From positions 1-57,055 of the forward strand of contig NZ_AZAY01000020.1 in assembly GCF_001021165.1 (NCBI RefSeq): DNA of 57,055 nucleotides, read 5' to 3'. Shown here in pieces: positions 56,423-57,055 of this stretch (within the stretch, counting starts at the first letter, position 1; every line of letters starts with the position of its first letter). The DNA is from Marinitoga sp. 1197 (GTDB lineage Bacteria; Thermotogota; Thermotogae; Petrotogales; Petrotogaceae). The notes beneath the pieces are model-generated. The model searched no databases and was not told the DNA's origin. It saw only the letters and a program-made list of their open reading frames with translations. The position numbers and the translations under genes were made by a program.

Positions 56423-56497
56423 TCCGGCGTAGCTCAACGGTAGAGCGGGTGGCTGTTAACCACTAGGCTGGGGGTTCGAATCCCTCCGCCGGAGCCA
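56423..56497 (+). tRNA. tRNA-Asn (anticodon GTT), CCA encoded
   Basis: The acceptor stem TCCGGCG pairs with CGCCGGA, followed by discriminator G and encoded CCA. The D arm is GCTC...GAGC. The anticodon arm GGTGG-CTGTTAA-CCACT carries GTT. The T arm is GGGGG-TTCGAAT-CCCTC, with a G-T closing pair. All expected conserved bases are present. Confidence 0.97.
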
Positions 56498-56504
56498 TCA
56501 TTAA

Positions 56505-56556
56505 AAACCCTTTAGGGGTTAGCAGAACGTCCAGTTATTATACTGGACGTTTTTTC
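56505..56556 (+). terminator. Terminator hairpins after tRNA-Asn
   Basis: A short hairpin (AACCC / GGGGTT, 56505-56520) is followed by a strong 10-bp stem (AACGTCCAGT / ACTGGACGTT, 56526-56551) and a T run. Confidence 0.85.
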
Positions 56557-56611
56557 TTTAGTAAAAACCGTATTAATTCTATAAAAAAGAAGAGGAATCT
56601 ATATAAATTTA

Positions 56612-56620
56612 TGTTATAAT
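56612..56620 (+). promoter_or_regulatory. Extended -10 before a 24-codon ORF
   Basis: TGTTATAAT lies 33 bp before the ATG at 56653. No clear -35 is seen. Confidence 0.45.
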
Positions 56621-56652
56621 AAGAATGAAAAATAAATCTGGAGATGATTACA

Positions 56653-56727
56653 ATGAAAAAACTACAAATAGATGCACAAGATTATAAAAAACTAATAATA
56701 GAAAATTATATAATAGAAAAGATTTAA
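56653..56727 (+). CDS. 24-codon ORF, possible gene remnant or leader peptide
   Basis: An ATG with GGAG 9 nt upstream opens a frame of only 24 codons (MKKLQIDAQDYKKLIIENY, ending IEKI). It has a proper extended -10 and ribosome site, and its start resembles the N-terminus of a normal cytoplasmic protein, but the frame ends just where the palindromic repeat array begins. It may be a gene cut off by the repeats or a short leader peptide. No family is recognised. Confidence 0.35.
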   Translation: MKKLQIDAQDYKKLIIENYIIEKI

Positions 56728-56738
56728 AATAAAAAAGT

Positions 56739-57013
56739 TTTAATCCAATACTTGCGTAAGCGTGAATATTTGCGTAAGCGTGAATATTTGCGAAGCAAAT
56801 ATTAAAATGTTTTTTTAATATAAAAATCCAATTTTAATCCTAAAACCCGCCGTAGGCGAAAATATTTGCTTTGCAAATATTTTAAGAATTTATTTTTTAA
56901 AATAAAATGATTTTATCCTAATATTTACCGGAAGTATGAATATTTTCTTTGAAAATATTGAAAAGGTTTAATTTTAAAATCTTAAATCTTTATCCTAAAA
57001 CCCGCTGTAGGCG
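56739..57013. repeat. Array of four degenerate palindromic modules
   Basis: Four modules begin near 56739, 56833, 56910 and 56988 (periods 94, 77 and 78). Each starts T-T-T-(A)-ATCC-(T)-AA, followed by a short hairpin (GCGTAAGCG, CGCCGTAGGCG, TACCGGAAGTA, CGCTGTAGGCG). In the first three this is followed by a palindrome AATATTT-x-C / G-x-AAATATT: 56783-56803 (9-bp stem), 56859-56883 (11-bp stem) and 56939-56959 (9-bp stem). The first module also has an 18-bp tandem repeat (56752-56769, 56770-56787). The array may continue past the window end. Confidence 0.8.
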
Positions 57014-57028
57014 TGTAACACCGGAGGA

Positions 57029-57051
57029 GAGCGACAGCTCAGAATTTTTTT
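57029..57051 (+). other. Short hairpin with T run at the window end
   Basis: GAGC-GACA-GCTC (57029-57040) is followed by T7 at 57045-57051. With only a 4-bp stem it is a weak terminator candidate or the start of another repeat module. Confidence 0.35.
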
Positions 57052-57055
57052 GTTT

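Follow-up and report, generated by a model that had tools for sequence, protein, structure and literature searches.

At the end of a contig of Marinitoga sp. 1197, a run of nested palindromes follows a tRNA-Asn gene and a short open reading frame. Which kind of element do these palindromes make up, and are they repeats or parts of an RNA? The original prediction had wavered among REP/BIME-like elements, MITE-like elements and a structured non-coding RNA. The window, i.e. the whole stretch of DNA analysed (57,055 nucleotides), is the entire contig C20 of a draft genome (2.27 Mb, 51 contigs, 99.98% complete), and the array breaks off where the contig ends, at 57055.

Organization of the array

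The array is made by units of about 78 nt each, arranged head-to-tail (Table 1). All follow one plan, in which a conserved frame forming a short hairpin (ATCC..ACCCGCCGTAGGCG) is followed by a second, swappable hairpin, and this by an AT-rich tail. The frame consensus, TTTTAATCC..A.ACCCGCCGTAGGCGTG, folds into a 4-bp hairpin. Some units bear an SD-like GGAGG, and hairpins are followed by T-rich runs. The four modules with nested hairpins originally described correspond well to these tandem units. The AT-rich palindrome attributed to each module was found as a perfect hairpin in three, but the fourth unit features a short, GC-rich hairpin, different in type from those of units 1 to 3. The statement that no conserved direct repeat is present was wrong, as three copies occur at a 78-bp spacing, copies 2 and 3 being 73% identical to copy 1. 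The distinction from CRISPRs was correct: a CRISPR array is rejected, as the repeats (73% identity) are not near-identical sequences with unique spacers, and carry conserved hairpins inside.

Table 1. Features of the array and of its surroundings in the window.
Feature	Position	Strand	Description
Tandem array, 4 units	56739-57055		317 nt, downstream of tRNA-Asn
Unit 1	56739-56832	+	frame; 18-bp tandem duplication 56747-56782; hairpin AATATTTGCGAAGCAAATATT 56783-56803; T-rich tail
Unit 2	56833-56910	+	frame hairpin CGCC-GTA-GGCG 56848-56858; hairpin 56859-56883 (11 bp); AT-rich tail
Unit 3	56911-56986	+	frame hairpin 56926-56936; hairpin AATATTTTCTTTGAAAATATT 56939-56959; AT-rich tail
Unit 4	56987-57055	+	frame hairpin 57003-57013; SD-like GGAGG 57023-57027; hairpin GAGCGACAGCTC 57029-57040; T-run; ends at contig end
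tRNA-Asn(GTT)	56423-56497	+	neighbour, probably outside the system
Terminator-like hairpin	56524-56553	+	behind tRNA-Asn, upstream of the array
Family-C AAA-ATPase/PDDEXK_9 gene remnant	56603-56727	+	promoter region and 24-aa ORF 56653-56727

The ORF upstream of the array had been viewed as truncated, and it is. The segment 56603-56712 resembles the beginning of family-C ATPase genes (84% match), whose last codons correspond to the bases that come next. At the junction (56705-56712) an 8-bp sequence, ATTATATA, is common to both ends, and about 1.4 kb have been lost between the two 8-bp repeats. These matches identify the short ORF as an AAA-ATPase/PD-(D/E)XK gene that has undergone an internal deletion, rather than as a novel small gene. 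Its family is related to the families whose leaders are occupied by units.

The location beside a tRNA gene is confirmed, but the link looks incidental, because the same upstream gene and tRNA-Asn are conserved in relatives, with no array beside them; tRNA-linked integration is rejected on this ground. The region directly 3' of tRNA-Asn varies among most congeners, the upstream gene being conserved (L122-L126), and is possibly a variable spot.

Secondary structure and covariation

The perfect hairpins of units 1 to 3 have stems of 9, 11 and 9 bp, respectively. Perfect stems of at least 9 bp averaged 0.043 in 1000 dinucleotide shuffles of the array, none of which reached the three observed. The fold z-score of the array is -3.96 with RNA parameters and -3.98 with DNA parameters; with values this close, folding speaks no more for an RNA role than for a DNA role.

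Covariation was analyzed in AT-type units alone (16 units of the same genome, picked by hand), with the structure specified by hand. In the two-helix structure 92.4% of the cells are paired, and 6 of the 13 base pairs are changed on both sides. The covariation score was reached by 0 of 500 shuffles, and pairing falls to 33–47% when the structure is slid along the alignment. RNAalifold returned no structure for the set of all 21 units, the short hairpins of the GC type being misaligned with those of the AT type. One compensated pair was found in the orthologous arrays of contig C42 and of the congener G005, GAAAAAGT-AAA-ACTTTTTC in the former versus GAAAAAGC-AAC-GCTTTTTC in the latter. Stems thus vary while remaining paired (TTTGC/GCAAA versus TTTTC/GAAAA), as originally noticed, but need not reflect the selection for structure deduced from it: the units are paralogous copies, and show that pairing is kept, not the reason for keeping it. 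Covariation among paralogues of one genome could stem from palindrome-correcting mutation instead of selection.

Distribution of the units

Units are dispersed repeats, confined to two genomes among those searched. Matches to the array were located by blastn at 26 places in the genome of origin. The genome-wide model search proposed at the outset did reveal further copies, since a sequence-only model (E<=0.01) identified 43 matches in this genome and 6 in G005; five further congeners gave none. With a stricter, structured model, units were found in 2 of 61 related genomes, that of origin counted, the other being again G005. The array has no match in plasmid and phage records, and the 26-nt frame no exact match in viral contigs. 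Searched against Rfam at the gathering threshold, the array matched no family, tRNA being the sole match; a relaxed cut-off gave chance-level matches only. No paper on repeats of this kind in Marinitoga was found in the literature searched.

Units in gene leaders

Outside MITEs, units predominate in front of genes. Among the 19 arrays of the genome which lie outside MITEs and have a visible downstream gene (coordinates partly copied by hand from printed sequences), 18 are in sense orientation, roughly 6–40 nt before the start codon. Thirteen leader arrays precede AAA-ATPase genes, sorted by domain match into family A (PF09820, 26 matches in the genome) and family B (best match PF14516, AAA_35). 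The other genes, named from reading translations and not by family search, are rnr, an ERCC4-type nuclease gene, two small ORFs of C42 and one ORF of C10. Outside ATPase genes the sense placement, observed in 5 of 6 arrays, is not significant alone (p about 0.11); leader copies may have duplicated along with the ATPase genes, and the 18 sense placements are therefore not 18 independent events. The unit G000:C12:71565-71594 (G000 being the genome of origin) is the only one outside MITEs to face away from the adjacent ATPase gene.

Contigs C7, C22, C25, C29, C31 and C49 end inside ATPase-B genes. With many contigs interrupted in this way, the assembly does not show how many such genes and leaders really exist, nor in which order. 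The last unit of the window recurs at C25 (94% identity, 88 bases), where it runs into an ATPase-B gene. As a near-identical unit precedes such a gene there, the array of the window very probably leads an ATPase-B gene located past the contig end, a gene not seen in the assembly.

Filled and empty sites

Comparison with relatives revealed filled and empty sites. The dnaB-rnr junction carries no insert in six congeners, and holds a MITE left end plus two units in the genome of origin. The C10 intergenic region measures about 390 bp here versus 70–90 bp in relatives; the insert is made by a MITE of a second type (see below) and by separate units, located after the -10 box and ahead of the SD. 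The C23 leader includes a unit absent in M. lauensis; synteny with this species was observed at one locus of the genome, along 2.9 kb of DNA that is 73–78% identical. In five congeners, the ATPase-B leaders that were read feature a plain -10 box/promoter and SD, and no units. Empty sites at several loci denote units as secondary insertions between promoter and Shine-Dalgarno. The C42 array, in the leader of a DUF1659 gene, is common to the genome of origin and G005. By eye, no clear TSD was seen at unit insertions matched by empty sites in relatives, TSDs having been found for the MITE only. The ERCC4-type nuclease gene of C23 (L077:1605-2600, assigned by reading) has its best matches, among the sequences searched, in Thermodesulfovibrio and Thermodesulfobacterium (~60–64%); the match in M. 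lauensis is 54%.

A 190-bp MITE hosting units

Some units reside within a separate element of 190 bp, marked at its ends by the 13-bp TIR TGTCTAAAAAGTC (89 matches versus 16 for the control). The base form (184–191 bp), which has no units, accounts for 22 of the 30 recovered copies. The remaining 8 are longer (265–402 bp), units being added at one internal position. TSDs mostly measure 9–11 bp, with a mean score of 7.2 versus 3.05 for mispaired flanks (maximum 4.17). TIR, TSD, lack of coding capacity and the many copies identify the element as a MITE. No TIR pair enclosing an IS-sized span, as an autonomous parent would feature, was noticed by eye. The base form is present also in congeners without units; units are thus probably a later addition to the MITE. 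Base elements carry two alternative sets of inner hairpins in one frame, with 11 copies each, and this swap is the same kind of stem exchange as observed in the units. The MITE-like nature originally suggested is half correct: a true MITE contains units in some of its copies, and units occur also away from it.

MITEs of a second type, which have nested hairpins and the ends GTCCAAAAAGTAAAGTCGCTC...TAATTGGACA, were found at L023 (C10), L138 (C49) and L009 (C22). At C10 the element has similar AT-rich flanks (TTTTAAATTT) on both sides.

Origin and role of the units

The reading favoured here, with a probability of about 0.72, is that of a lineage-specific, non-autonomous modular palindromic repeat, inserted in leaders and leading, in the window, an ATPase-B gene past the contig end. 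Between the conserved frame hairpin and the AT-rich tail, each unit bears one hairpin out of about six that are interchangeable. Units have entered 5' leaders in sense, in the stretch from the -10 box to the Shine-Dalgarno, as empty sites at several loci show, and also the interior of the 190-bp MITE. The size ladder of the MITE copies suggests that arrays grow and shrink by whole units, and recombination between the 28-nt frames may drive such gains and losses. In the window, the putative ATPase-B leader would lie beside a decayed family-C ATPase gene. Units probably add hairpins to the mRNA leaders they occupy: as predicted from sequence, each would fold into two hairpins beside the ribosome-binding site, and these could tune expression or stability.

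Other readings were weighed against this one. That the array reflects chance self-complementarity, for which the AT-richness of the region might speak, has a virtually null probability and is refuted by the three stems against 0.043 in shuffles, by fold z-score and covariation, and by copies dispersed through the genome at about 43 matches. REP/BIME elements moved by a RAYT (Y1 transposase) are scarcely tenable. Units are small palindromes set in arrays, and GTAG, which tags one REP superfamily (PMC3733652), occurs in their frame, but it falls in hairpin loop and stem rather than at one end, and units are head-to-tail modules of about 78 nt, not alternating palindromes of 20–40 nt. The search for a REP-associated transposase, put forward with the REP hypothesis, yielded 0 Y1_Tnp matches in G005 and in the 99.98% complete draft of the genome of origin, the sole carriers of units. 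REP/BIME elements are rejected for the absence of the transposase from the carriers and the wrong form of the units. Very unlikely is also that units are an internal part of the 190-bp MITE, spread by its transposition. The 265–402 bp copies do contain units, and leaders at C1 and C45 bear the MITE left end fused to units; against this stand the unit-less form of 22 of the 30 copies, the same form in congeners devoid of units, and the C10 units (beside the SD) and C42 units, to which no MITE end is joined.

A selected non-coding RNA is a possible reading of the units. In a specific version, the ATPase genes would have a selected leader RNA regulating them in cis, as an attenuator or stability element, which was then copied to other genes. 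This would account for the sense orientation close to start codons, for base pairing kept with covariation, for the SD-like GGAGG of some units and the T-rich runs after hairpins. We deem it unlikely, as five congeners have homologous ATPase-B genes lacking units, the number of copies per leader varies freely, copies are found also in MITEs, the array includes no canonical terminator and matches no Rfam family beyond chance level, and the fold z-score is the same with DNA parameters. Quite doubtful is the view of units as mobile leader cassettes, which would insert in sense beside the ribosome-binding site and whose interchangeable hairpins would give the multicopy ATPase/nuclease family and several other genes a shared post-transcriptional control.

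As a non-autonomous repeat inserted in leaders, with empty sites in congeners, the units provide a compact system to measure cost and benefit of bacterial leader hairpins. The constant frame and the wholesale exchange of inner stems, seen in units and MITE, make a clean case to set covariation arising from RNA selection against that arising from palindrome-correcting mutation.

Comparison with known repeats

GTAG-tagged REPs and BIMEs (PMC3733652, PMC2817692) are similarly dispersed palindromes found in arrays, and GTAG is present within the frame of the units. In contrast to them, units have no RAYT, are larger, run head-to-tail, and lie in sense in 5' leaders. As bacterial MITEs (reviewed in PMC10969869), units are non-autonomous, AT-rich and structured, and the 190-bp host is a typical MITE; TSDs are demonstrated here for the host, not for the units. 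The DUF1703 family (AAA-ATPase_like + PDDEXK_9) expands and recombines in Cardinium cCpun (PMC6387759), and the same kind of multicopy family adjoins the repeats described here; a text search of that paper for "palindrom" gave no match.

Likened by description rather than by direct comparison of sequences, the units appear most like the BOX elements of Streptococcus pneumoniae, which are organized as boxA-boxB(n)-boxC (PMC3049150). Both are small modular intergenic repeats with variable tandem internal modules, strong hairpins and no transposase of their own; the ability to affect co-transcribed genes would be shared by analogy. Unit number is variable as in BOX, but outside the MITE there are no constant end modules comparable to boxA and boxC, and one frame hosts interchangeable hairpins. 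Units differ from BOX also in being concentrated in the leaders of one gene family, and in being nested in a MITE.
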